A stretch of 46,873 nt of DNA, taken from positions 1-46,873 of the forward strand of contig JAGFXO010000009.1 in the NCBI GenBank assembly GCA_017861285.1, written 5' to 3'. Both the position numbers and the translations under genes were made by a program. The notes under the pieces were generated by a model, which searched no databases, was not told the DNA's origin, and was given only the letters and a program-made list of their open reading frames with translations. How positions within the stretch are numbered: the first letter of the stretch is position 1; each line of letters opens with the position of its first letter. The stretch is from Geobacteraceae bacterium (lineage in GTDB: Bacteria > Desulfobacterota > Desulfuromonadia > Geobacterales > Geobacteraceae). Shown piece after piece: positions 3,540 through 33,249 of the stretch.

Positions 3540-3954
3540 TAAACGATCGGTGCAGAACGAAGCGCCGGATCCATCCGCAAAAGACGCGGTGGGTCAGTTC
3601 TCTGCTGTTACAATTCAAGGTGCTCAATCCAATGACCGGATATGTCCGCGCTGAGGAGCCAAAATTCGATGGCCATATTGATAACGGTATGGTCATTTTG
3701 ATTGCCAATAACAAGTGCCTAACTCATCTGTAATAGCTTCAAAAGTTCGAATTTTCCTACGTGCTGCGGGTATCCAGTTTGCTATTTTTTGCATTTTCAA
3801 TGGATTACGGGTAGAATCTTGGGCAAGTGTAACGGAGACGGACCGGAAGAACCGGAGCCCTTTTGTTCGTTTTGTCCAGTATGGGATTAAATACGCAGGC
3901 ACAGGGCACAAGCCTCAAGACACGAAGCACGAAGCACGACATAACGGAGTGTCA
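3540..3954 (+). other. 415-base intergenic stretch ending in a repeat array
   Basis: No convincing gene. The reading frame of the following gene stays open from 3715, but that extension lacks family similarity, and the good ribosome-binding site is at 3955. A second short open stretch (about 3610-3723) ends in a stop and resembles nothing I know. The last 57 bases hold GGCACA/AGCAC-type short repeats, described separately. Confidence 0.5.
3898..3940 (+). repeat. GGCACAGGGCACAAG-type short repeat array
   Basis: Imperfect 7-8-base units (GGCACA, GGGCACAA, CACGAAG) just upstream of the radical SAM start codon. The 15-mer GGCACAGGGCACAAG at 3898-3912 recurs exactly at 20525-20539. Related arrays lie before mqnE and gcvH. 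Confidence 0.7.
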
Positions 3955-5373
3955 ATGAAAGTGGTTTTTGTCCATCCGCACGGCAGCAACTGGATGGGCT
4001 CGTTGAAGGATATCAGCAGTATATTCAATCTCATGCCTCCCCTGGGGTTGCTGAGCATTGCCGCATATCTCGAGGAGCGCGGCATTGACGTCGAAGTCAT
4101 CGACTGTTATGCCACTCCCGCCGGTGTTGATGAAATTGCAGCGGATATTGTCGCCCGTTCGCCTGACGTTGTGGCATTTTCCTGCACGACATCGTGTTTT
4201 CTCGAGGGATATGAGATTGCACGGAGGCTCAAGGAGCACAATGACCGGCTGCCCGTGGTGTTCGGCGGCGCCCATGCATCCGCGTCGGGAGCCACACTCC
4301 TGGACGATTTCCCTGCCATAGATTATCTCGTCATCGGAGAGGGTGAGGCAACTTTTCATGATTTGATTACCGCCGGGTTCAGGTCTGTGGGCTCAATCCC
4401 AGGCGTGGGCTACCGTCTCGCCGGCAAAGGGACCCTCAGCTCCGTGCGGGAGAACATCGAAGACCTGGACTCTCTCCCCTTTCCCGCCTATCACCTGCTT
4501 CCGGGATTCCCCCGACGTTATAACCTGCCGCTGTTCAGCTATCCGAAGGCGCCGAATACCAGCATTATTTCAAGCAGGGGATGTCCGTACCAGTGCAGCT
4601 ACTGCGACCGGTCGGTTTTCAAAAGCGGTTTCCGCGCCAATTCCCCTGCCTATGTCCACCAGCACCTGGAATATCTGTACCGGGATTTCGGTATACGGCA
4701 TGTATTTTTCTATGACGACCTGTTCACCTTTGACCGTGGACGGATCGAAGCGCTCTGTATCCTCAAGGAAAGGAAAAAACTTCCGGTTACCTATAACTGT
4801 ATTGCCCGGCTTGAGCATGTGGATAAGGAATTGCTTGCCCTGCTTCGGCGTTCGGGATGCTGGCAGGTGAACTTCGGCATCGAATCCGGGGATCCGGACG
4901 TTCTGGGGAGACACCGCAAAACCTGCGATCCCCATGAGGTATACCGGAAACTCCTCATGGTGCGGAAAGCGGGGATGCGGGTCAAGGGCCTGTTTATGGT
5001 CGGTCTTCCGGGGGAAACGGAACAGTCCATCCGGCGCACCATCGATTACGCCCTTTCACTGCCTCTCGATGAAATCAATGTTACCAAGTTTACCCCGTTC
5101 CCCGGAGCGCCCGTGTACAGGACGATCCGTGAGCATGGCGAGTTCCGCGAAGACTGGTCCGCCATGAACTGCATGAATTTCGTTTTCGTGCCCCGCAACC
5201 TTACACTCGAGAGAATGGAAGAGTTATACAATGAATTCATCCGCGGGTTCTACCGTCGAAGCCATATCCACTGGGGATATGCCAGGATGCTCTGGAAGTC
5301 GCCGCACAGTATCGCCCGCTTCCTGGGCAACCTCCCCGAAATTCTGAGATTCCAGATAAAGCAGAAATGGTGA
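3955..5373 (+). CDS. B12-binding-domain radical SAM protein
   Basis: 472-residue radical SAM protein with an N-terminal cobalamin-binding-like Rossmann domain (residues about 1-140; motifs MPPLGLLSIAAYLE, VVFGGAHAS and VIGEGE). A radical SAM core follows with the [4Fe-4S] motif C210-x3-C214-x2-C217 (GCPYQCSYCDRS). The usual ESGD and GLPGETEQS segments are present. Such proteins methylate or otherwise modify unactivated carbons, often in lipid or cofactor pathways; the substrate is unknown. Start chosen at 3955: MKVVFVHP is a typical family N-terminus and GGAG stands six bases upstream. A longer frame from 3715 would add about 80 residues with no similarity. It precedes the menaquinone genes by about 95 bases; a role there is only inference. 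Confidence 0.9.
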   Translation: MKVVFVHPHGSNWMGSLKDISSIFNLMPPLGLLSIAAYLEERGIDVEVIDCYATPAGVDEIAADIVARSPDVVAFSCTTSCFLEGYEIARRLKEHNDRLPVVFGGAHASASGATLLDDFPAIDYLVIGEGEATFHDLITAGFRSVGSIPGVGYRLAGKGTLSSVRENIEDLDSLPFPAYHLLPGFPRRYNLPLFSYPKAPNTSIISSRGCPYQCSYCDRSVFKSGFRANSPAYVHQHLEYLYRDFGIRHVFFYDDLFTFDRGRIEALCILKERKKLPVTYNCIARLEHVDKELLALLRRSGCWQVNFGIESGDPDVLGRHRKTCDPHEVYRKLLMVRKAGMRVKGLFMVGLPGETEQSIRRTIDYALSLPLDEINVTKFTPFPGAPVYRTIREHGEFREDWSAMNCMNFVFVPRNLTLERMEELYNEFIRGFYRRSHIHWGYARMLWKSPHSIARFLGNLPEILRFQIKQKW

Positions 5374-5468: not shown

Positions 5469-6893
5469 ATGGCGTATCCTGACCTTCACCATTTCCTGGA
5501 TAGACTGGATCAAGAGGGTGAGCTTCAGCGGGTGACGGTGGAGGTTGATCCGGTATTGGAGATTTCCGCTATTGCCGACCGGGTGAGCAAGATGCCTGGT
5601 GGCGGCAAGGCCCTCCTCTTTGAGAATGTCAAAGACAGCCAATTCCCGGCGGCAGTCAATATCTTCGGCTCATACCGGCGTACGTGTCTCGCTCTGGGAG
5701 TGGAAGAACTGAATGATCTCTCCGGGCGTGTGGATGATTTTTTCGCCGCATTGCCCGCCGGATCGGCGGATGAATGGTGGCTGAATCTCGGTTTTGAACC
5801 CCGCCAGGTAATCCAAGCACAGTGCAGGGAGATAATTGATTACTCACCGGACCTGGAATCATATCCTTTCCTGAAAAGCTGGCCGGAGGACAGCGGCAGG
5901 GCGGCGACGCTTCCGCTGGTTTTCACGGAAGACCCTGAAACCGGTCGTGCCAACTGCGGCATGTACCGCACGCAGGTTCTCGGACCCGTAACGGTTGCCA
6001 TTCATTGGAGCCCGGGCAGCGGGGGAGGGCGTCACTACTCACGGTACCGGGAGAGCGGAAGACGGATGCCGGTAGCAATTGTCCTTGGCGGGGATCCCTC
6101 CCTTGTCTTTTCCGCGATGCTTCCCCTTCCCGATGAGGCTGACGAGATGCGTTTCGCCGGCTTGCTGCGCAACAGCCCCGTTGAGATGGTCCGGAGTCTC
6201 ACCTCTTCCCTTCTTGTCCCGGCGAACGCCGAACTGGTCATTGAGGGATTCGTTGAGTCCGGTGAGGTTGTTTCCGGGAGTGTTTTCGGCAATCATACCG
6301 GGTTTTATGCGCCGGCACCGGATGCGCCGATTGTGAGGGTAACCTGTGTAACCCGGAAATCAGTTCCGGTTTTTCCCTCGACCGTGGTCGGCAGACCTCC
6401 CATGGAGGATTGCTGGATGGCGAAGGCTTGTGAGAGACTTCTGCTTCCGTTCATCAGGCGGGCTATGCCGGAAGTGGCCGATATAAATATGCCGCTGGAA
6501 TGGATATTCCATAACAGTGCCGTCGTTGCTGTCGACAAGGCATATCCCGGGCATGCCGTCAGGGTGATGGATGCCCTCCGGAACGGCGGCTGGTTGCGCA
6601 ACGCCAGGCTTCTGATCGTCGTTGATGCAGGCATCGACATACAGGACCTGTCGCTGGTAGCCTGGCGTATGCTGAATTGCGTGGATTGGCAGCGGGACAT
6701 CGTGAGGTTCGGACAGTGCCGGGAGCATGCGCAGCCTGTTCGCACCCTGCCTGGAAGCGGGACGTTCCTGGGGGTCGATGCAACGCGAAAATTGCCGGAG
6801 GAACATCCGGGCCGCGCATGGCCCGGGGAAATTGCCATGAACGACGATGTGACGCGGCTGATCGAGGCGCGATGGCGGGCATACGGGTTATAG
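5469..6893 (+). CDS. mqnL: UbiD-family decarboxylase, probably menaquinone (futalosine) pathway
   Basis: 474-residue UbiD-family decarboxylase, expected to use prenylated FMN to remove the naphthoate carboxylate late in futalosine-pathway menaquinone synthesis. The assignment rests on the family and on the adjacent UbiA, UbiX, MqnE and MqnC genes. Conserved parts include NCGMYRTQV (N162, R167), the GGRHY segment, and EWIFHNS. The segment usually reading EGPFG(D/E)H reads SGSVFGNH here (269-276), so an acidic residue often counted in the catalytic E-R-E triad appears replaced. One base separates its stop from the next gene, indicating translational coupling. The gene symbol follows the naming of futalosine-pathway homologues and is tentative. 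Confidence 0.88.
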   Translation: MAYPDLHHFLDRLDQEGELQRVTVEVDPVLEISAIADRVSKMPGGGKALLFENVKDSQFPAAVNIFGSYRRTCLALGVEELNDLSGRVDDFFAALPAGSADEWWLNLGFEPRQVIQAQCREIIDYSPDLESYPFLKSWPEDSGRAATLPLVFTEDPETGRANCGMYRTQVLGPVTVAIHWSPGSGGGRHYSRYRESGRRMPVAIVLGGDPSLVFSAMLPLPDEADEMRFAGLLRNSPVEMVRSLTSSLLVPANAELVIEGFVESGEVVSGSVFGNHTGFYAPAPDAPIVRVTCVTRKSVPVFPSTVVGRPPMEDCWMAKACERLLLPFIRRAMPEVADINMPLEWIFHNSAVVAVDKAYPGHAVRVMDALRNGGWLRNARLLIVVDAGIDIQDLSLVAWRMLNCVDWQRDIVRFGQCREHAQPVRTLPGSGTFLGVDATRKLPEEHPGRAWPGEIAMNDDVTRLIEARWRAYGL

Positions 6894-6894
6894 T

Positions 6895-7755
6895 GTGGAA
6901 AAGATAAAGATTTTCCTGGAAATGATAAAATTCTCCCATACGGTGTTCGCCCTTCCCTTTGCCTTTACCGGCGCCGTTCTTGCGGCAGGGGGGCTTCCCA
7001 CGGCACACCAGGTTTTCTGGATCGTTGCTGCCATGGTCGGCGCGCGCACCGCGGCAATGGGCCTCAATCGCCTGATAGATGCCGAGATTGATGCGAAGAA
7101 CCCGAGAACCTCCATGAGGGCTGTTCCGGCGGGTCTTCTCGACAGGGGAACCGTTGCGGCATTTATTGCGCTTTCCCTGGTGATTTTCATGTATGCGGCG
7201 TACATGCTGAACGATCTCTGCTTTTATCTTTCTCCGGTTGCGGTTGCACTTGTGCTGCTGTATTCCTACTGCAAACGTTTTACCTCCCTGAGCCATCTCG
7301 TCCTCGGCCTCTGTCTGGCCATGGCTCCGGTGGGGGCGTGGATCGCCATCCGGGGGACACTCGAGCCGCCTGCGGTTATCCTTGGCCTGGCGGTACTGTT
7401 CTGGGTTGCGGGCTTCGATATCCTGTATGCGCTGCAGGACCTGGACTTCGACAGGTCGGCAGGTCTCCATTCGATTCCGGCGCGGCTCGGGGTAGCGGGG
7501 TCGCTACGGGTGGCCCGTCTGTTTCACCTGACCCTGGCGGTTATGCTGCTTGCACTGTACCGTTTGCTGGGCCTCGGCCCTGTATACCTTGCCGGAGTCC
7601 TGCTTGCAGCGACCATTCTTTTCCACGAGCACCGACTGATACGGAATGGTAATCTGGCAAAACTGGACGCGGCATTTTTCAATATGAATGGTTACATAAG
7701 CCTCACCCTGTTTGTCTTCACTCTGGCCGATGTTCTCTTGTGGGGTGTGCTATGA
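6895..7755 (+). CDS. mqnP: UbiA-family prenyltransferase, probably menaquinone (MqnP-like)
   Basis: 286-residue integral membrane prenyltransferase. It should attach the polyprenyl chain to the carboxylated naphthoquinol intermediate of the futalosine pathway. The two Asp-rich motifs that bind Mg-diphosphate are visible: N58-R-L-I-D62-x3-D66 followed by NPRT, and D175 with D182, D184 and D186 (DILYALQDLDFDRSAG). About eight to nine hydrophobic segments are present. It starts with GTG at 6895, one base after the UbiD stop, and its stop overlaps the ubiX start by four bases (ATGA), so the three genes are translationally coupled. Family confident; the menaquinone role rests on context. Confidence 0.92.
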   Translation: MEKIKIFLEMIKFSHTVFALPFAFTGAVLAAGGLPTAHQVFWIVAAMVGARTAAMGLNRLIDAEIDAKNPRTSMRAVPAGLLDRGTVAAFIALSLVIFMYAAYMLNDLCFYLSPVAVALVLLYSYCKRFTSLSHLVLGLCLAMAPVGAWIAIRGTLEPPAVILGLAVLFWVAGFDILYALQDLDFDRSAGLHSIPARLGVAGSLRVARLFHLTLAVMLLALYRLLGLGPVYLAGVLLAATILFHEHRLIRNGNLAKLDAAFFNMNGYISLTLFVFTLADVLLWGVL

Positions 7756-8357
7756 AAAACAGGCATATTGTGCTTGCAATAACCGGTGCGTCCGGTGCAA
7801 TCTATGGTCTCAGGCTTGGTATGGAGCTGCTGCGGGCAGGAAGTCGACTGTCCCTGCTGATCAGCAGGACCGGCTTCGATGTTCTCAGGCACGAGACCGG
7901 TCTTGACTGTCGAGGCAGCGAGGCAGAGATTGCAGGTTTTCTGCGCGGACATTTTCATGCGGGGGAGGGGAGCCTTTCATATTATGCCGAAGACAATTTC
8001 TTCGCTCCGGTAGCGAGCGGCTCAGCGTCTGCCGATGCCATGGTCCTCTGCCCCTGTTCTATGGGAACCCTGTCGAGGATAGCTTCCGGCAGTTCGGGAA
8101 ATCTGATCGAGCGCTGCGCCGATGTGGTGCTGAAGGAGCGCCGCACCTTGGTAATGGTGCCCCGTGAGACGCCATTGAATGACATTCACCTGGAAAACAT
8201 GCTGAAGCTTTCCCGCATGGGGGTGCGGATTGTTCCGGCAATGCCGGCCTTTTATTACGGTCCGGAGACCGTTGATGATATGGTTGATTTTGTGGTGGGC
8301 AAGGCTCTCGATTCCCTGGGAATAGGGCATAGCCTGTACCGGCGCTGGGGGGGGTAA
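7752..8357 (+). CDS. ubiX: UbiX-type flavin prenyltransferase
   Basis: 201-residue UbiX homologue, which makes prenylated FMN, the cofactor needed by the UbiD-family enzyme two genes upstream. Visible features are the N-terminal flavin-binding AITGASGAIYGLRL, CPCSMGTLSRIASGSSGNLIERCADV, and VPRETPLNDIHLENM near the C-terminus. Start chosen at ATG 7752 because it overlaps the UbiA stop as ATGA and GGGGTG lies just upstream; an in-frame GTG at 7740 is less likely. Cytoplasmic. Homologues within futalosine clusters have also been called MqnM. The presence of the UbiX/UbiD/UbiA trio next to mqnE and mqnC makes the pathway assignment strong. Confidence 0.95.
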   Translation: MKNRHIVLAITGASGAIYGLRLGMELLRAGSRLSLLISRTGFDVLRHETGLDCRGSEAEIAGFLRGHFHAGEGSLSYYAEDNFFAPVASGSASADAMVLCPCSMGTLSRIASGSSGNLIERCADVVLKERRTLVMVPRETPLNDIHLENMLKLSRMGVRIVPAMPAFYYGPETVDDMVDFVVGKALDSLGIGHSLYRRWGG

Positions 8358-8359
8358 AG

Positions 8360-8396
8360 GCGGGCACAAGGCAAAGGGCAAAGGGCAAAGGGCGGG
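8360..8396 (+). repeat. GGGCAAA tandem array before mqnE
   Basis: GGGCACAAG followed by three GGCAAAG units and GGGCGGG, ending one base before the mqnE start codon. Four GGG tracts (8376-8378, 8383-8385, 8390-8392, 8394-8396) with 1-4-base spacers fit a G-quadruplex motif on the coding strand. No ordinary Shine-Dalgarno sequence is present. Confidence 0.8.
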
Positions 8397-8397
8397 C

Positions 8398-9480
8398 ATG
8401 ATATCAATTGAATCCATAAGAGACAAGGTGCAGAAAGGCCTGCGTGTAACCGACGAGGATGCACTGTTTCTCTTTGAATCCAAGGAACTGCTGGAGGTCG
8501 GCGAACTGGCGGCTCTCGTGAATGAAAGGAAAAACGGCAAGCGGGTCTTCTTCAACATAAACCGCCATATCAATTACACCAATATCTGCGTCAAACGCTG
8601 CGCTTTCTGCGCCTTTTCACGAAAGTCCGGAGAGGATGGCACGTATACCCTGAGCCTTGCGGAGATTACCAATCGGGCTTCCGAAGCGCAGCGACAGGGG
8701 GCCACGGAACTGCACATTGTCGGAGGGCTCCACCCTGAACTGCCGTTCGATTTCTATCTGGACATGCTCAGAGAGGTCAAGTCGGCAGCGCCATTGCTCC
8801 ATATCAAGGCATTTACCGCCGTGGAAATCGACCATTTTTCGTCTATCTCGGGACTTGCCCCGGTAGATGTTTTGGCATCACTGCAAAAGGCCGGCCTCGG
8901 TTCTCTGCCGGGTGGCGGGGCGGAGATATTTGCTCCTAAAGTGAGGCAGGAGCTTTGTCCGGAGAAGATCAGCGGGAAAAGGTGGCTTTCGATTATGGAA
9001 GATGCCCACCGGAACGGGCTCAGGTCGAATGCCACGATGCTCTACGGGCACTTGGAGAATTATGCCGACCGGGTTGATCACCTTTGCAGGCTGCGGGAAT
9101 TGCAGGATAGAACAGGCGGCTTCCAGGCATTTGTCCCGCTGGCGTTTCAGCCCGGGAATACGCGGCTGTGGACCGCTGGAATGGCTGGAACTACGGGGAT
9201 GGATGATCTCAAGACCCTTGCCGTTTCACGTGTGTACCTGGATAACTTCGATACGATAAAAGCATACTGGGTGATGCTGGGGGAAAAGATAGCCCAGGTT
9301 GCCCTCTCCTTCGGCATAAATGACCTTGATGGTACGGTCATCGAGGAGAAGATCGGGCATGATGCAGGGGCTTCTTCACCCCAGTCCCTGGGCAGGGAGG
9401 AAATCCTCTGCCTGATCCGCAAGGCGGGCAGACTGCCGGTGGAGCGGGACACATTGTACCGTGCCGTTCGGGAGTATTAG
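8398..9480 (+). CDS. mqnE: Aminofutalosine synthase MqnE (radical SAM)
   Basis: 360-residue radical SAM enzyme. MqnE joins the radical formed from S-adenosylmethionine to 3-[(1-carboxyvinyl)oxy]benzoate, giving aminofutalosine. The cluster motif is C64-x3-C68-x2-C71 (CVKRCAFC). It is told apart from MqnC by NRHINYTN, the CAFSRKSGEDGTYTLS stretch, and LHIVGGLHPELPF followed by HIKAFTAVEI, all typical of MqnE. The length is normal. The 5' side is unusual: a G-rich repeat array abuts the ATG, which may affect translation. MqnA, MqnB and MqnD are not in this window and must lie elsewhere if the pathway is complete. Confidence 0.94.
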   Translation: MISIESIRDKVQKGLRVTDEDALFLFESKELLEVGELAALVNERKNGKRVFFNINRHINYTNICVKRCAFCAFSRKSGEDGTYTLSLAEITNRASEAQRQGATELHIVGGLHPELPFDFYLDMLREVKSAAPLLHIKAFTAVEIDHFSSISGLAPVDVLASLQKAGLGSLPGGGAEIFAPKVRQELCPEKISGKRWLSIMEDAHRNGLRSNATMLYGHLENYADRVDHLCRLRELQDRTGGFQAFVPLAFQPGNTRLWTAGMAGTTGMDDLKTLAVSRVYLDNFDTIKAYWVMLGEKIAQVALSFGINDLDGTVIEEKIGHDAGASSPQSLGREEILCLIRKAGRLPVERDTLYRAVREY

Positions 9481-9536
9481 TGCCTGTCGGCAAGTAAAAG
9501 TATCCATATCTCTTGTGCGACGGATTGGGGCCGCAA

Positions 9537-9667
9537 CCCCATCCCCACCCTGGCCCCCCCTGAAAGGGATGGAACTGAAATTCGGGGGTTTCGGCAGGGG
9601 ATATCAGCCCTTACCCTGAAACGGGATCCTCGTCATACTCCTCGCTGATGGGGAGGGGGATGGGGTA
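9537..9667. repeat. Degenerate inverted-repeat element between mqnE and mqnC
   Basis: The 229-base gap between mqnE and mqnC has no gene. ACCCCATCCCC at 9537-9547 is exactly inverted at 9657-9667, and the interior holds further C-rich and G-rich blocks. It looks like an intergenic palindromic repeat, possibly a decayed relative of the CCCTCTCCC palindromes around 22.7 and 23.0 kb. Confidence 0.55.
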
Positions 9668-9709
9668 AAGAAAAGGGAAAAACTTTCAGGGTTATCTCAA
9701 TAGTTAGAC

Positions 9710-10780
9710 ATGATCGAATCGATTCGAAAAAAAATTGAAGCCGGTGAAGGGATTGACAGACAGGAAGCCCTCTGGCTTCTCGAAGAAGCGGACCTTCTCT
9801 TTGCGGGAAGGCTTGCCGACGACATCCGTCGCCGGTTGCACCCGGAAGACATCGTCACCTTCGTGGTAGACAGAAATGTCAATTATACGAATATCTGCGA
9901 GGCCAAATGCAGCTTCTGCGCCTTTTATCGCGACAGTTCGGCACCGGACGGGTACGTTCTTTCCGATGAGGTGATTTTTGAAAAGATCGATGAACTCGTG
10001 CGGCAGGGGGGGACTCAACTCCTCATGCAGGGGGGGCTGCACCCCGGTCTTGACATTGTTTTTTTCGAAAGACTGTTCCGGGAGATCAAAAAACGTTATC
10101 CTTCGGTCCAGAACCATTCCCTCTCCCCGCCCGAAATCGTGCAGATAGCCGCCGTCTCCGGGCTCGGGACAGCGGAAACACTGTCAAGGCTGAAGAATGC
10201 CGGTCTCGATTCGATCCCGGGCGGCGGTGCAGAGATACTTGTGGATTCTGTGCGGAGGGAAATCTCTCCGAAAAAGATCGGTTGGGAAGAGTGGGCCGGG
10301 GTCATGAGGGAAGCGGCGCGACTTTCGATGCCGACTACCGCAACCATGATGTTCGGCAGCAGGGAAAGGCCGGAGGATATCGTGGAGCATCTTTTCCGCA
10401 TCAGGCAGCTGCAGGCCGGGGGCGGCTCGTTTACCGCGTTTATTCCCTGGACATACCAGCCGGGCAATACGGAACTGGGAGGCCAGACTGCTACCGCCGC
10501 GGAATACCTGAAGGTCGTGGCTTTGTCCCGGATCCTCCTTGACAACATACGGAACATTCAGGCAAGCTGGGTGACTCAGGGGGCAAAAATAGCCCAGATC
10601 GCCCTGCATTTCGGGGCAAACGACCTTGGCGGGACCATGCTGGAAGAAAATGTAGTGGCTGCCGCCGGCTGTTCCTTCCGGATAGCCAGGGAGCAGATGA
10701 TACATCTGGTGCGGGATGCCGGTTTCCGCCCCGCCCGAAGAACCACCCTATACGATAACGTTGAAAAATATGACAGGTAA
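9710..10780 (+). CDS. mqnC: Cyclic dehypoxanthinylfutalosine synthase MqnC (radical SAM)
   Basis: 356-residue radical SAM enzyme. MqnC closes the spiro ring of dehypoxanthine futalosine to give the cyclic product in menaquinone synthesis. The cluster motif is C63-x3-C67-x2-C70 (CEAKCSFCAFYR). MqnC-type features are VTFVVDRNVNYTNIC, GGTQLLMQGGLHPGLDI, SLSPPEI, and the C-terminal GTMLEENVVAAAG. It is about 35-40 percent similar by eye to the upstream mqnE, as expected for these sister enzymes. The start ATG at 9710 matches the family N-terminus, although only a weak AGGG lies upstream. It is separated from mqnE by a palindromic repeat element. Confidence 0.94.
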   Translation: MIESIRKKIEAGEGIDRQEALWLLEEADLLFAGRLADDIRRRLHPEDIVTFVVDRNVNYTNICEAKCSFCAFYRDSSAPDGYVLSDEVIFEKIDELVRQGGTQLLMQGGLHPGLDIVFFERLFREIKKRYPSVQNHSLSPPEIVQIAAVSGLGTAETLSRLKNAGLDSIPGGGAEILVDSVRREISPKKIGWEEWAGVMREAARLSMPTTATMMFGSRERPEDIVEHLFRIRQLQAGGGSFTAFIPWTYQPGNTELGGQTATAAEYLKVVALSRILLDNIRNIQASWVTQGAKIAQIALHFGANDLGGTMLEENVVAAAGCSFRIAREQMIHLVRDAGFRPARRTTLYDNVEKYDR

Positions 10781-27992: not shown

Positions 27993-30320
27993 TCATCGCG
28001 GCCTGCTCGAGGGAACGAGCTTCGCCCTTATCTCCCGAATGATGGTGAGTGTCTCGTTGGCCGCTTCCTTCGGCGCCAGGGCCGTATCCGCAATGTTGCA
28101 CACCAGTTTCGTCATGTCGTGATCCATCTTCTTGGCAGCCCATGTGCTGCCTTTGGCAACGGAGATGTACGCCGAATAGGAATGGTGCATGGTGCCGGGG
28201 CGCTCCCCGATGATGTGAACAATCCCGTAAAGGCGGTTGGGGTCTGATTTTTCAAAAAGTATGTTGCCGATCTCGTAGCCGGCACGCACCCTGCCGTTGA
28301 TGACTACGATGTTCTTGTCGCTCATGACTGCGCCGTTTTCGGTAAGCAGCTTGCGGATTTCTTCCACGTAGGGCATGAGGTGCCCCTTGTCCATGATGGC
28401 GTCGGCATTCAAACCGTCGGAAATCACGATATATCCGTTCGGCTGTTTTTCTTTCCCTTTCCACGAGTCGCGGAGCCGTTCGATCACGGCCACGGATTGG
28501 GGGCTCAGCTTCTCGCCGGTGGCCGGTTGGGCAATATAGTTCTCACGGTCCTTGGACTGGGTCCTTACCTCCACCACGTTGGGGATGGTGGCGATGAAGG
28601 CGGGGGTAAGCTCAGACCAGAGACTTTTCTTGGCATCCTTGTAGAGGGTGGTGATGTTCGCTTCCAGCTTCGGGTTCAGATCCCAGATATTCTTTCCGTG
28701 GCCGACGGCAATATCCACACCTCTCGATTCCACTTCCTTCATCTTCTTCTTGCCTTCGGCATAGATCATTTCTTTGGAACGCTTGTCGCCCTTGGCCAGC
28801 CGATACTGATAGTACACCCAGAGCGGATCTCCGTAATGGGCGGTGTACCTGTTGTTCCTGTCCACGATCCCGATCCGTTTGTAGAAATCCCACATGGGAT
28901 CATTGACTTTCAGTTTGAACTTATCCCTCAGACGCACATGGTCCTGGAAAGAAGTGGTAAGGTAACTCAGCATCGGGTCGTTTTTGGTGGGAAGGGCAAT
29001 CAGATAGGCCGGGCCGGCCGGCATGATCTGGTCCTGGCACCAATCGAGGTCTTCGAGGCTTACGGCCATGTGCAGGGTGGAACAGATGTCAAGACCGATG
29101 GTCAGGCCATGCAGTTTGCCCATGGCGATATCTTCCAGGCAGCACCGCACCAGCTGTTCCCTGGTCCTGAAGACCTCGGGCCCGATGAATCCCGCCACGT
29201 CGTTGATATGGAGCCATGGTCCCTTGGGCTGAACCTTGGCCAGTTCCATCTGCACCGCCCTGCTGAATCCGTACTTCCTGGACTCCAGCACCATCATGTC
29301 CACGCCGTTGGCCGCGCCGTTGGTGAATTCCGAGCCCTGGCCGGTCTCGAAGTAAAGCCCGTACCTCTTTCCCTTCTTGGCCTTCGCATAATTCAGTATC
29401 TTCTCGACCGTCACATCGAAGGTCTTGTTGCAGTCATCGGTTCCGGCCAGGCTCTGGAACATGGTCTCGACCGTTCCCGGGTACTTCTTCTCGACCTCCG
29501 CCTGGACGTCGATATGTGAAAGCACGCACCAGGGGACTATATCACGAAGTTTGAAGGTTTCGACCACGTCCATGAGGGCTTTCTCCACCGTGGCGACGCT
29601 CTCTACCTGGCTGTCCACCGGGTTGACCCCGATGACGATGTCGCCCGTTGCATAGGAAAAGGCGTCAAAAGTCTGCCAGACGATGTCATCGGGATTGTCC
29701 GTCGGCGAGTTGGGCTGGATGCGGGCGCTCAGGTAGCCTTTTGCTCCCATTTTGGTACCGGGCATGACATTGTATATCTTCTGGTCAAACTTTATCAGTT
29801 CCTGATTGCTCATCAGTTTTGGGACGCATCCGATGATGTCGCTGTTCAACCCGCCCATGATCCCCTTGATCTGGGATTCGGACTTGGTCATCAGGAATTC
29901 TTTCAGCTCTCCCATGGTCCATCCCTTGATCTTCTCGTACCTGGCCTGATCCGTGGTCTTCCAGATAAGCTTCTGCAGGTCGTCTACAAGCAGTGGATGC
30001 TCATGGAGGTCCTTGAGCTTCGTGTTCGACAGGAGGGTGCGTGCGTTCTGCCTTGTTTTTTCATCAGCGGCCCCCACGCCGATGGTTACGTCTCCTTCCT
30101 TGAACGCATTTGCAGCACCGATTACCTGCCGGTAGAGGGTTTGATCGAAGCCTCCCTTTACCCGGGTCATGTATGCAAACACATCCTCTCCCGGCTTTAC
30201 ATCCGTAATCATGTTCGGGGTGACGGTCGGTGCCGTCTCCGCAAACACCTTGTCCAGATTGACAACAGACGGGATAATGGCGCCGGCAGCGCACAGTTTC
30301 AAGAAATCTCGCCTTTTCAT
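27993..30320 (-). CDS. eutBC: Tat-targeted fused ethanolamine ammonia-lyase (EutB-EutC)
   Basis: 775-residue fusion of both subunits of adenosylcobalamin-dependent ethanolamine ammonia-lyase (ethanolamine to acetaldehyde plus ammonia). Residues 1-27 are a twin-arginine signal (KRRDFLK, hydrophobic stretch, likely cut after VFA). Residues about 55-505 match EutB and keep the active-site residues known from E. coli: R200, Q202, N233, E325 (FETGQGS) and D411. Residues about 580-768 match EutC: VISDGLNADAI, GRV (676-678) and GERPG (705-709). The linker, about 505-580, is charged. GGAGG stands six bases before the start. It lacks eut neighbours (no EutA reactivase, no shell proteins) and lies downstream of envelope genes. 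Catalytic competence is inferred; substrate may differ. Confidence 0.93.
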   Translation of the reverse strand: MKRRDFLKLCAAGAIIPSVVNLDKVFAETAPTVTPNMITDVKPGEDVFAYMTRVKGGFDQTLYRQVIGAANAFKEGDVTIGVGAADEKTRQNARTLLSNTKLKDLHEHPLLVDDLQKLIWKTTDQARYEKIKGWTMGELKEFLMTKSESQIKGIMGGLNSDIIGCVPKLMSNQELIKFDQKIYNVMPGTKMGAKGYLSARIQPNSPTDNPDDIVWQTFDAFSYATGDIVIGVNPVDSQVESVATVEKALMDVVETFKLRDIVPWCVLSHIDVQAEVEKKYPGTVETMFQSLAGTDDCNKTFDVTVEKILNYAKAKKGKRYGLYFETGQGSEFTNGAANGVDMMVLESRKYGFSRAVQMELAKVQPKGPWLHINDVAGFIGPEVFRTREQLVRCCLEDIAMGKLHGLTIGLDICSTLHMAVSLEDLDWCQDQIMPAGPAYLIALPTKNDPMLSYLTTSFQDHVRLRDKFKLKVNDPMWDFYKRIGIVDRNNRYTAHYGDPLWVYYQYRLAKGDKRSKEMIYAEGKKKMKEVESRGVDIAVGHGKNIWDLNPKLEANITTLYKDAKKSLWSELTPAFIATIPNVVEVRTQSKDRENYIAQPATGEKLSPQSVAVIERLRDSWKGKEKQPNGYIVISDGLNADAIMDKGHLMPYVEEIRKLLTENGAVMSDKNIVVINGRVRAGYEIGNILFEKSDPNRLYGIVHIIGERPGTMHHSYSAYISVAKGSTWAAKKMDHDMTKLVCNIADTALAPKEAANETLTIIREIRAKLVPSSRPR

Positions 30321-30367
30321 GGTGAACCTCCAGTTTATTCGAGTTTGTTATCCTGAGCCATTGCTCT

Positions 30368-30847
30368 CTATTTCACCAGAGGCACCGCCGAGGCGAGCTC
30401 GTAACGAAGCGCGGCGCGTATCTTGTTCTCGATCTGCAGATAGCGGGCAACCTTGATTGCGGGAATGGCCTTGTACAGCTTCGGCGCGAATGATTTCTTC
30501 ATGACGGCCTCAGCTTCATCGATGGAGATCATTTCGGCAACCATCTTTTTGGACTTCTCGTCCGTCAGTGAATTATTGTTGTAGTCGGCGGCATAGGCTT
30601 TTATGAGCGTCATGATCCTTTTGTTGAGTTTTCCTAGTTCGACCTGGTAGGCGTCATAGACCGGCCAGAATTTTTTGGCTTCGGCGTCGCTCAGTTTCAT
30701 GTTGGCTGCAACCAAGAGTTTCTTGTCAGCCTTGACCTTTTCCAGAAGAATCTGCATGTCGCTGTCAGTAGGCTTCTGCGCGGCGACTGCCGGCAGGGAA
30801 ATCGACAAGGCCGAAACCAGCATAAGGAGAAATACGATTTTTTTCAT
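30368..30847 (-). CDS. Small helical periplasmic protein of unknown function
   Basis: 159 residues. A clear signal peptide (MKKIVFLLMLVSALSISLPAVAA) precedes a charged, almost wholly helical mature part with KFWPVYDAYQVELGKLNKR and LEKVKADKKLLVAANMKL. The pattern recalls Spy/CpxP-like periplasmic helpers, but the LTxxQ motif is absent. The start at 30847 fits the signal peptide; an upstream in-frame ATG at 30901 is less likely. It lies 31 bases after DUF2950 and 47 bases before the EutBC fusion, so all three are probably cotranscribed. It might be a partner or chaperone of an exported neighbour; that is inference. Confidence 0.8.
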   Translation of the reverse strand: MKKIVFLLMLVSALSISLPAVAAQKPTDSDMQILLEKVKADKKLLVAANMKLSDAEAKKFWPVYDAYQVELGKLNKRIMTLIKAYAADYNNNSLTDEKSKKMVAEMISIDEAEAVMKKSFAPKLYKAIPAIKVARYLQIENKIRAALRYELASAVPLVK

Positions 30848-30878
30848 GGGTGGAAAATCCTTTCGTGTTTGAAGATGG

Positions 30879-31859
30879 TTATTTTGCTGTGGGCGTCTCA
30901 ACTTTCTTCCAATCGGGACCCGGATCGAAGAGTTGCATTGTGGAGGCTACCTCGGAGGTCTTCGGCCCCAGGTCCTTCTGAAATACAATACCATCATGGT
31001 TGACGATAAACGTCATGACACCGGAAACGCCATATTTCGCGGGATAGGCGACTACCGCTACCCCACCGAGCAGATGCCCGTTAACCAGGTAGTCGTAAGC
31101 GCCTCCCCTCGCATGTTGACCCTGGCCGGTCACTATGCGGTAGAAGTAGCCGTAATAGGGAGAAGGAGCTTCTCCGCTCTTCTTTTCGGTATACCCCTTG
31201 GCCTTGGCCTTGGCCAGAAGCTCTCCCAGCGGACTTGGTGCCTCACCCTCCCCGGTCTGCCAGTAAAGTCCGTTTCTCTTGCCCGGATCACTCCAGAACC
31301 TGGCGGCATACTCATGCATACCATTGCCGTCATAGTCATTCATTGCGTACTCCAACTGCGCATCGATGATGGCCTGACAGGTTTGGATGGTATCGAGTTC
31401 GTTGGCTCCGATACGGCGGTTCACCAACTCCTGCATCCCGGCCCGGGTGTCAAAACGCCACCGGTTCTTGTTCATGACGAGCGGGATGGGGAAGGGCCAC
31501 TCATTCTTACCGACAACCAGTACAGCCTTGTTCCTACCTTCCCGCTGGAGCCGATGCGACTCCTCAAATTTCGCGACAAAACGTTCCTTGCGATACTCGT
31601 CGTTGACCGGGTCACCCGAAGAAAGCAACTTTACGCTGTTCGGACCGAAAAGTGCTGTAAGCGCAGTCTTGTCGTTTTTTTTCAACGAATCGAGAAACGC
31701 CTGCACCGCTTTTTCCGGTGATATGAAGGTTTTCTGTTTTTCTGTGGCAGCCGATGCGGGTATGGACAGGAAAACCGCCGTGAGGATGAGCGCCAGTCGG
31801 GTGATCGTCACCAACCAACCCGGGGCGCCGGCTTTTTCCCGTATCAAAGAGAGTTCCAT
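30879..31859 (-). CDS. DUF2950 periplasmic protein
   Basis: 326-residue DUF2950 protein. An N-terminal hydrophobic segment (about 17-37: WLVTITRLALILTAVFLSIPASA) is a signal peptide. The family's SPEKAVQAFLDSLKKND opening and the GGAYDYLVNGHLLGGVAVVAYPAKYGVSGVMTFIVNHDGIVFQKDLG C-terminal region are both visible. The family has no known function. AAGGAGG four bases before the start is near ideal. DUF2950 genes often sit next to DUF3300 genes, as here, which suggests a shared envelope task. Confidence 0.9.
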   Translation of the reverse strand: MELSLIREKAGAPGWLVTITRLALILTAVFLSIPASAATEKQKTFISPEKAVQAFLDSLKKNDKTALTALFGPNSVKLLSSGDPVNDEYRKERFVAKFEESHRLQREGRNKAVLVVGKNEWPFPIPLVMNKNRWRFDTRAGMQELVNRRIGANELDTIQTCQAIIDAQLEYAMNDYDGNGMHEYAARFWSDPGKRNGLYWQTGEGEAPSPLGELLAKAKAKGYTEKKSGEAPSPYYGYFYRIVTGQGQHARGGAYDYLVNGHLLGGVAVVAYPAKYGVSGVMTFIVNHDGIVFQKDLGPKTSEVASTMQLFDPGPDWKKVETPTAK

Positions 31860-31938: not shown

Positions 31939-33249
31939 TTACCGGCGACGCCCCCCTCCGCCGCGGGATCCACCTCCGAACCCTCCGCCGCGTGAACCTC
32001 CGCCGAACCCTCCCGAGGAACCTGAGCGGGACATGCTTTGGCGGCTTTCCATGCCGCGGCTGCTGAAATCCCTGGCGGAAGAGCCTCTATCCATCCCCTC
32101 GAAGGCGCTTGACCTTCCACTTCCCCGTTGAGAGGCGCTCACCCCGCCGTCCGTCCTGCCGTACCCGCTGCGCTGGTCGCCCCCCCGGCTTCTGTCCATC
32201 TGGCTCGCACCGCCGCGCTGTCCGCTATCCCCTCGACGGTCCATCTGGCCGGAACCGCCACGCTGTCCGCTATCAGCTCTCCGATCCGTCTGGCCGGAAC
32301 CGCCACGCCCAAGATCCCTTTGCACTGCCTCGGCGCGGCCTCGATAGTTTTCTCGGGACTTCACGGCCGCGGGGGATGATCCCCTGTTGTACTTTGACGC
32401 GGTTCTCTGATCCCGGTAGGCGACACCCTGGCGGTGGGAGGGGTTGTGCTGCCAGGAGCCGCGGCCCTGGCCCCCCTTGAACTCCGCCTTGTACTTGCTC
32501 CGGTCGATGTTCCTGTTGATGTTGGTGTTCCGGTTGACGTCGATATCCACATCACCATGTCCCCCCCAGGCATACCCCCATGCCGCTCCCACCGCCACGC
32601 CGGCTGCGAAGGAAAAGAAGGCCGCTCCGGCATAGTAACTGGGAGGGTAGTAGTACGCAGGCGGGTAGGCCGGATAGGGCCATGTGCCGTACACCACCGT
32701 GGGATTGTACGCAGGTACGTAGACCACCTGGGGACTCGCGGGTTGGATGATGATCGTTTCCTTCTCGACGATCACCTTCTGCTCTTTTGTCGAGTTGAGG
32801 TTGCCCGATGCCTGTGCCTTGGCGCGAAGGGACTGGACAGCCTTCATGACATCCTGCTGCTGCGCCAGGAAGGCGTCACCCACTTTCTGAGTCAGGTCGA
32901 TCTTTTCGCTCATCATGCTGAGCACGTCGGGGAAGTTGACCAGGGACTTCACGCTCGGGTCCCATGGCTGCTTTTCCAGTGCGGCGGTCAGCGCATTCCC
33001 CGTCAGTCCCTTGTTCTGCTTTGCCCACCGGTCGGCCTGGACTATCTCCAGGGGATAGGTGGAGGCAATCAGGATCTGGGCCAAGACATCATCGGGGTAG
33101 AGTGCGATGGGGGCCAGAATCTGCTCAAGTTCCGCCTGACTGAAAGAAGTCTTCCCTTGCGGTTCCTGCGCAAACGGAGCGGCAGGAAGAGACAGCAGCA
33201 GGATGAGGGCTATGGCAACGAGTTTCATAACCTTCCGCATTTCCTTCAT
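31939..33249 (-). CDS. DUF3300 protein with Arg/Gly/Ser-rich repetitive tail
   Basis: 436-residue secreted or periplasmic protein. A signal peptide (about 1-28) is followed by the DUF3300 domain (SQAELEQILAPIALYPDDVLAQILIASTYPLEIVQADRW ...). Next come a Tyr/Pro-rich stretch with PAYNPTVVYGTWPYPAYPP, a Gly/Ala membrane-like patch, and an Asn-rich DIDVNRNTNINRNIDRSKYK region. The last 130 residues are low-complexity (GGSGQTDRRADSGQR units, then GGGSRGGGFGG runs), probably disordered and cationic. Function unknown. AGGGAGGA precedes the start. Confidence 0.9.
   Translation of the reverse strand: MKEMRKVMKLVAIALILLLSLPAAPFAQEPQGKTSFSQAELEQILAPIALYPDDVLAQILIASTYPLEIVQADRWAKQNKGLTGNALTAALEKQPWDPSVKSLVNFPDVLSMMSEKIDLTQKVGDAFLAQQQDVMKAVQSLRAKAQASGNLNSTKEQKVIVEKETIIIQPASPQVVYVPAYNPTVVYGTWPYPAYPPAYYYPPSYYAGAAFFSFAAGVAVGAAWGYAWGGHGDVDIDVNRNTNINRNIDRSKYKAEFKGGQGRGSWQHNPSHRQGVAYRDQRTASKYNRGSSPAAVKSRENYRGRAEAVQRDLGRGGSGQTDRRADSGQRGGSGQMDRRGDSGQRGGASQMDRSRGGDQRSGYGRTDGGVSASQRGSGRSSAFEGMDRGSSARDFSSRGMESRQSMSRSGSSGGFGGGSRGGGFGGGSRGGGGRRR

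Follow-up and report, generated by a model that had tools for sequence, protein, structure and literature searches.

The window analyzed here is the whole 46,873-nucleotide stretch of a Geobacteraceae contig. Its minus strand carries a single open reading frame for a 775-residue protein in which a signal-like N terminus precedes an EutB and an EutC domain. The frame, its start, and its Pfam domains all bear out the original prediction of one EutB-EutC chain that begins with KRRDFLK and a hydrophobic stretch. The locus comprises the following features.

27993..30320 (stop codon included), minus strand: probably exported EutB-EutC fusion, 775 amino acids (ORF list and Pfam)
30327..30331, minus strand: ribosome-binding site GGAGG, 6 bases 5' of the fusion ATG (sequence)
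30207..30320, minus strand: N-terminal signal region, residues 1-38, MKRRDFLK plus a moderately hydrophobic stretch (sequence, RR in 24/24 members, weak TIGR01409 match)
28839..30134, minus strand: EutB domain, residues 63-494, with R200, Q202, N233, E325, and D411 (Pfam and alignments)
28023..28715, minus strand: EutC domain, residues 536-766, with ISDGLN, GRV, and GERPG (Pfam and alignment)
30368..30901, minus strand: small 177-amino acid protein with a signal-like N terminus, 47 bp upstream of the fusion
30879..31859, minus strand: DUF2950 protein with a signal-like N terminus (Pfam), same strand as the fusion
31939..33249, minus strand: DUF3300 protein with a signal-like N terminus (Pfam), same strand as the fusion

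The fusion starts with ATG, and GGAGGTTCACCATG lies directly upstream on that strand. Because GGAGG precedes this ATG, the start codon, and with it the signal, is well supported. The genes for DUF3300, DUF2950, and the small exported-looking protein precede the fusion in that order on one strand. The 177-residue protein has no family match, and its gene is possibly co-transcribed with the fusion. The window neighbors give no pointer to ethanolamine use, and the original statement that no eut genes are nearby holds: none other than the fusion was found among the window proteins scanned with Pfam and NCBIfam. The DUF3300-DUF2950 pair also lies near fusions with Tat-type signals at L027 and at four rhizobial loci (L009, L022, L087, and L089).

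The EutB half is a near-complete Pfam domain (E = 2.1e-146) and scored 639 bits against an NCBIfam EutB subfamily model with a cut-off of 554. The EutC half, on the same chain, is likewise near complete and above the Pfam cut-off (E = 3.6e-30). Its score with the NCBIfam EutC equivalog was 78.6 bits, below the cut-off of 230, indicating that this half is divergent. Solved EutB structures matched the fusion over ∼435 residues (E = 1e-69 and 8e-64), and the match to solved EutC structures was weaker. An AlphaFold2 model derived from 25 too-similar relatives (pLDDT 62.6, pTM 0.47) was too weak for use.

A 25-member alignment shows no variation at the five EutB residues named in the original prediction (R200, Q202, N233, E325, and D411), which align with Arg-160, Gln-162, Asn-193, Glu-287, and Asp-362 of Escherichia coli EutB. 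The equivalents of these five and of Ser-247, Phe-329, and Leu-402 are unchanged in 66/66 exported fusions. Glu-287 reportedly interacts with the adenosyl ribose (PMC4413051), and Arg-160 is described as critical for radical catalysis in a title cited in PMC10440813. The EutC motifs ISDGL, GRV, and GERPG were also found as claimed, with the GL, RV, and GERPG columns kept in 65/65 sequences. The canonical EutC residues Ser-170 and Arg-141 are replaced in the fusion lineage by Asn and Glu.

The window protein thus shares EutB and EutC domains, catalytic residues, and EutC core motifs with the two-subunit enzyme of E. coli (PDB 3abo and relatives). In contrast to that enzyme it is one chain with a signal, its EutB part is about one-third identical, and it is accompanied by neither a eut operon nor EutA. 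Closer relatives are the cytosolic EutB-EutC fusions at L049-L052, which have the same domain order, the catalytic residues, and several of the fusion-lineage EutC changes. Nevertheless, these proteins are only 37-39% identical to the window fusion and begin at the EutB domain without any N-terminal extension. In a maximum likelihood tree of the EutB part only, a single clade (54 rows sampled, support 100/98) holds the exported fusions, with the cytosolic fusions (100/99) as its sister; two-subunit EutB is separate (100/100).

Relatives were found at 36 loci among genome contigs. Counts that include two-subunit EutB were 19 of 97 relatives, 35 of the 395 genomes searched from the phylum, and 50 of 244 from the class, and a search of the same scope also found EutB-like genes on rhizobial megaplasmids. 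Hosts of the exported fusion include Geobacter-, Syntrophaceae-, and Syntrophobacteraceae-type bacteria as well as rhizobia and similar organisms (Sinorhizobium/Ensifer, Rhizobium, Mesorhizobium, Bradyrhizobium, and Microvirga). The fusion also occurs in single metagenome-assembled genomes labeled Acidobacteria and Verrucomicrobia. The viral contigs scanned held no relatives of the fusion. Cultured bacteria with an exported fusion include Sinorhizobium meliloti (on pSymA) and probably Pelobacter carbinolicus, which makes the idea of an exported ethanolamine ammonia-lyase testable.

The N termini were read directly and compared with a Tat pattern of our own. In the window fusion the Tat motif RRDFLK, within MKRRDFLK, is followed by a hydrophobic stretch, and cleavage after VFA (residues 25-27) is possible as judged from the sequence. 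A search for further Tat-signal EutB-EutC fusions, suggested with the original prediction, returned such proteins, and the RR pair is kept in 24/24 aligned Tat-type members. In this alignment the mean frequency of the top residue is 0.53 at N-terminal positions 5-40 versus 0.81 for the remainder. Tat-like patterns arose by chance in 9 of 8400 shuffled N termini. With the TIGR01409 TAT_signal model the window fusion scored 12.8 bits (E = 0.12), a weak match under the cut-off of 16.7, and 7/25 members reached E ≤ 1. Other Tat-type motifs are SRRDLLVMAG and similar sequences in rhizobia and SRRKFC in a more distant set. At three loci (L014, L022, and L029) the automatic choice of start had removed the signal, and RR lies in frame just upstream. 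The Tat signal of the L003 member (9965 onwards) ends in a lipobox-like LAGC, and this protein may be a lipoprotein.

A second set of members has Sec-like signals lacking RR plus FLK, for example MKRFILFIAMLCFGVLAFSTNSDA. Two proteins assigned to it, L044 and L047, start with MRR, and L044 passes the Tat pattern; both were classed as Sec type by high hydrophobicity and place in the tree. The Tat and Sec labels each require at least two changes on the EutB tree. Such signals, swapped but never lost, suggest selection for leaving the cytoplasm. Family-wide conservation therefore supports the export part of the original prediction but not a specifically Tat route, and the many homologues that do lack RR, an outcome expected to count against export, carry a Sec-like signal instead. 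That export is conserved across the family and the route is not is well supported by the N-terminal sequences, and the fusion very probably leaves the cytoplasm.

The gene neighborhoods of the two signal types differ. Sec-type fusions usually lie in a cluster with genes for a Gcw_chp protein, a PotD-like binding protein, a multi-spanning membrane protein, and an ABC ATPase with a FecCD permease, and the cluster further holds a binding protein, MoxR, DUF58, and a vWA protein. The best named matches of the ATPase and permease are corrinoid transporters (BtuC/BtuD-like), at scores below curated cut-offs. The membrane-protein marker adjoins 11/14 Sec-type loci versus 0/38 Tat-type loci. This contrast carries no correction for shared ancestry, and its Fisher value, for which loci count as independent, is purely descriptive. 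The membrane protein is absent from the genome of the window, and the window itself lacks the corrinoid-type ABC and vWA cluster. Multi-spanning membrane proteins of the type encoded at L090 11549-12328 accompany Sec-type fusions; this protein and its homologues (∼260 residues) gave no Pfam, NCBIfam, or PDB match. Among the 38 Tat-type loci compared, an alcohol dehydrogenase gene neighbors the fusion at 22 and a phosphoketolase gene at 14. An aldehyde:ferredoxin oxidoreductase gene adjoins the fusion at L102, L104, L105, and L106. Rfam searches of the window and of 11 related loci returned no cobalamin riboswitch.

An EutB-EutC fusion is already known from P. carbinolicus. In a 2012 report (PMC3543383), two fused genes, eutBC1 and eutBC2 (Pcar_0491 and Pcar_0467), are described in the absence of eutA, with neighbors that make up the Sec-type cluster including the corrinoid-type transporter. 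The report states that P. carbinolicus strains grow on ethanolamine, and the text searched makes no mention of signals or export for the fused proteins. Genome G498 carries two fusion copies ∼29 kb apart in the gene order described there, and we infer that it is probably P. carbinolicus. Each copy bears a Sec-like signal, and G498 gave no further EutB match. If the species grows on ethanolamine, as stated for its strains, an exported fusion is the sole ethanolamine ammonia-lyase candidate found in that genome. The window fusion belongs to the same fused family and likewise lacks EutA, but it differs in its Tat signal and in the absence from the window of the corrinoid-type ABC and vWA cluster.

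No second EutB was found in the genome of the window (2.46 Mb, 98% complete). This genome carries TatC, a BtuR-type adenosyltransferase, CobS, and two aldehyde:ferredoxin oxidoreductase genes, indicating a host that can make adenosylcobalamin (AdoCbl) and export folded proteins and that could use acetaldehyde. A PduO-type adenosyltransferase was not found there. Candidates for EutA were rejected as FtsA-like from where they matched and from their length, being ∼30-bit matches over ∼46 residues in open reading frames of FtsA-like length, and no real EutA was found in this genome or in the related genomes searched.

The EutBC-type vitamin B12 radical enzyme is normally cytoplasmic or enclosed in protein microcompartments. 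We are not aware of any report of an exported AdoCbl radical eliminase, and a literature search found no papers on Tat-exported or periplasmic ethanolamine ammonia-lyase. The best single reading of the sequence evidence, to which we give a probability of about 0.6, is that the fusion is a working periplasmic AdoCbl ethanolamine ammonia-lyase. Points against it are the missing EutA, the negative riboswitch searches, the ∼50 changed EutB positions described below, and window neighbors that do not suggest ethanolamine use. The sequences themselves show the fusion, its intact catalytic residues, the two kinds of conserved signal, the association with the cluster, and the host genes for AdoCbl synthesis and Tat; from these we infer its location, cofactor loading, substrate, and the roles of its neighbors. 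The Tat signal would take the folded, cofactor-loaded single chain over the inner membrane. There ethanolamine, released for instance as phosphatidylethanolamine is turned over, would be cleaved by the enzyme to acetaldehyde and ammonia, both of which would enter the cell. Aldehyde:ferredoxin oxidoreductases or alcohol dehydrogenases of the cytoplasm would then oxidize or reduce the acetaldehyde. The periplasm would replace the eut microcompartment, providing an alternative way of handling acetaldehyde, and an ethanolamine importer would be unnecessary. Reductive dehalogenases, which are Tat-exported corrinoid enzymes, provide a precedent for exporting a B12 enzyme. However, they combine redox corrinoid and iron-sulfur chemistry with no adenosyl radical, and their fold is unrelated.

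Another substrate, such as choline or a 2-amino alcohol, would leave the fusion an exported AdoCbl eliminase. The exported fusions depart from two-subunit EutB at about 50 positions that hardly vary in the latter, so the substrate may differ, and the binding protein encoded next to the Sec type belongs to the PotD/YdcS class. Furthermore, the annotators of P. carbinolicus suggested separate ethanolamine and choline lyases for its two copies (PMC3543383). The residues unchanged in 66/66 fusions nevertheless include the known substrate contacts of E. coli EutB, and we consider a different amino alcohol unlikely. An exported former lyase that now serves to bind or scavenge periplasmic cobamides would be consistent with the missing EutA and with the corrinoid-type transporter beside the Sec type. 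This role is improbable, as catalytic residues kept throughout would not be expected in a binding protein and genes for aldehyde:ferredoxin oxidoreductase and alcohol dehydrogenase commonly adjoin the fusion. Equally improbable is a nonfunctional signal, with the fusion retained in the cytoplasm or held at the inner membrane face: despite the weak matches to TAT_signal models, RR is invariant amid varying residues, Sec-like signals replace Tat signals on the tree, and cytosolic fusions lack the extension.

If the fusion is indeed a periplasmic lyase, the cell needs a supply of AdoCbl outside the cytoplasm and perhaps a means of renewing it there. A Sec-type chain would cross the membrane unfolded, so its cofactor would have to be inserted outside, and the corrinoid-type ABC transporter and the MoxR/DUF58/vWA set of the Sec cluster are candidates for cofactor supply and insertion. 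We tentatively suggest, as a rather speculative scheme, that Sec members obtain AdoCbl in the periplasm via this transporter and that MoxR, DUF58, and vWA proteins stand in for EutA, with assembly and repair outside the cytoplasm and Tat members loaded inside. Loading inside would explain why the MoxR/DUF58/vWA set, to judge by the membrane-protein marker, is missing beside Tat-type fusions.

Elsewhere in the window, positions 3715-5373 encode a radical SAM protein of the B12-binding type that scores below the cut-off of every named subfamily, and a row of futalosine-type menaquinone genes (UbiD-like, MqnP-like, MqnE, and MqnC) occupies positions 5469-10780.
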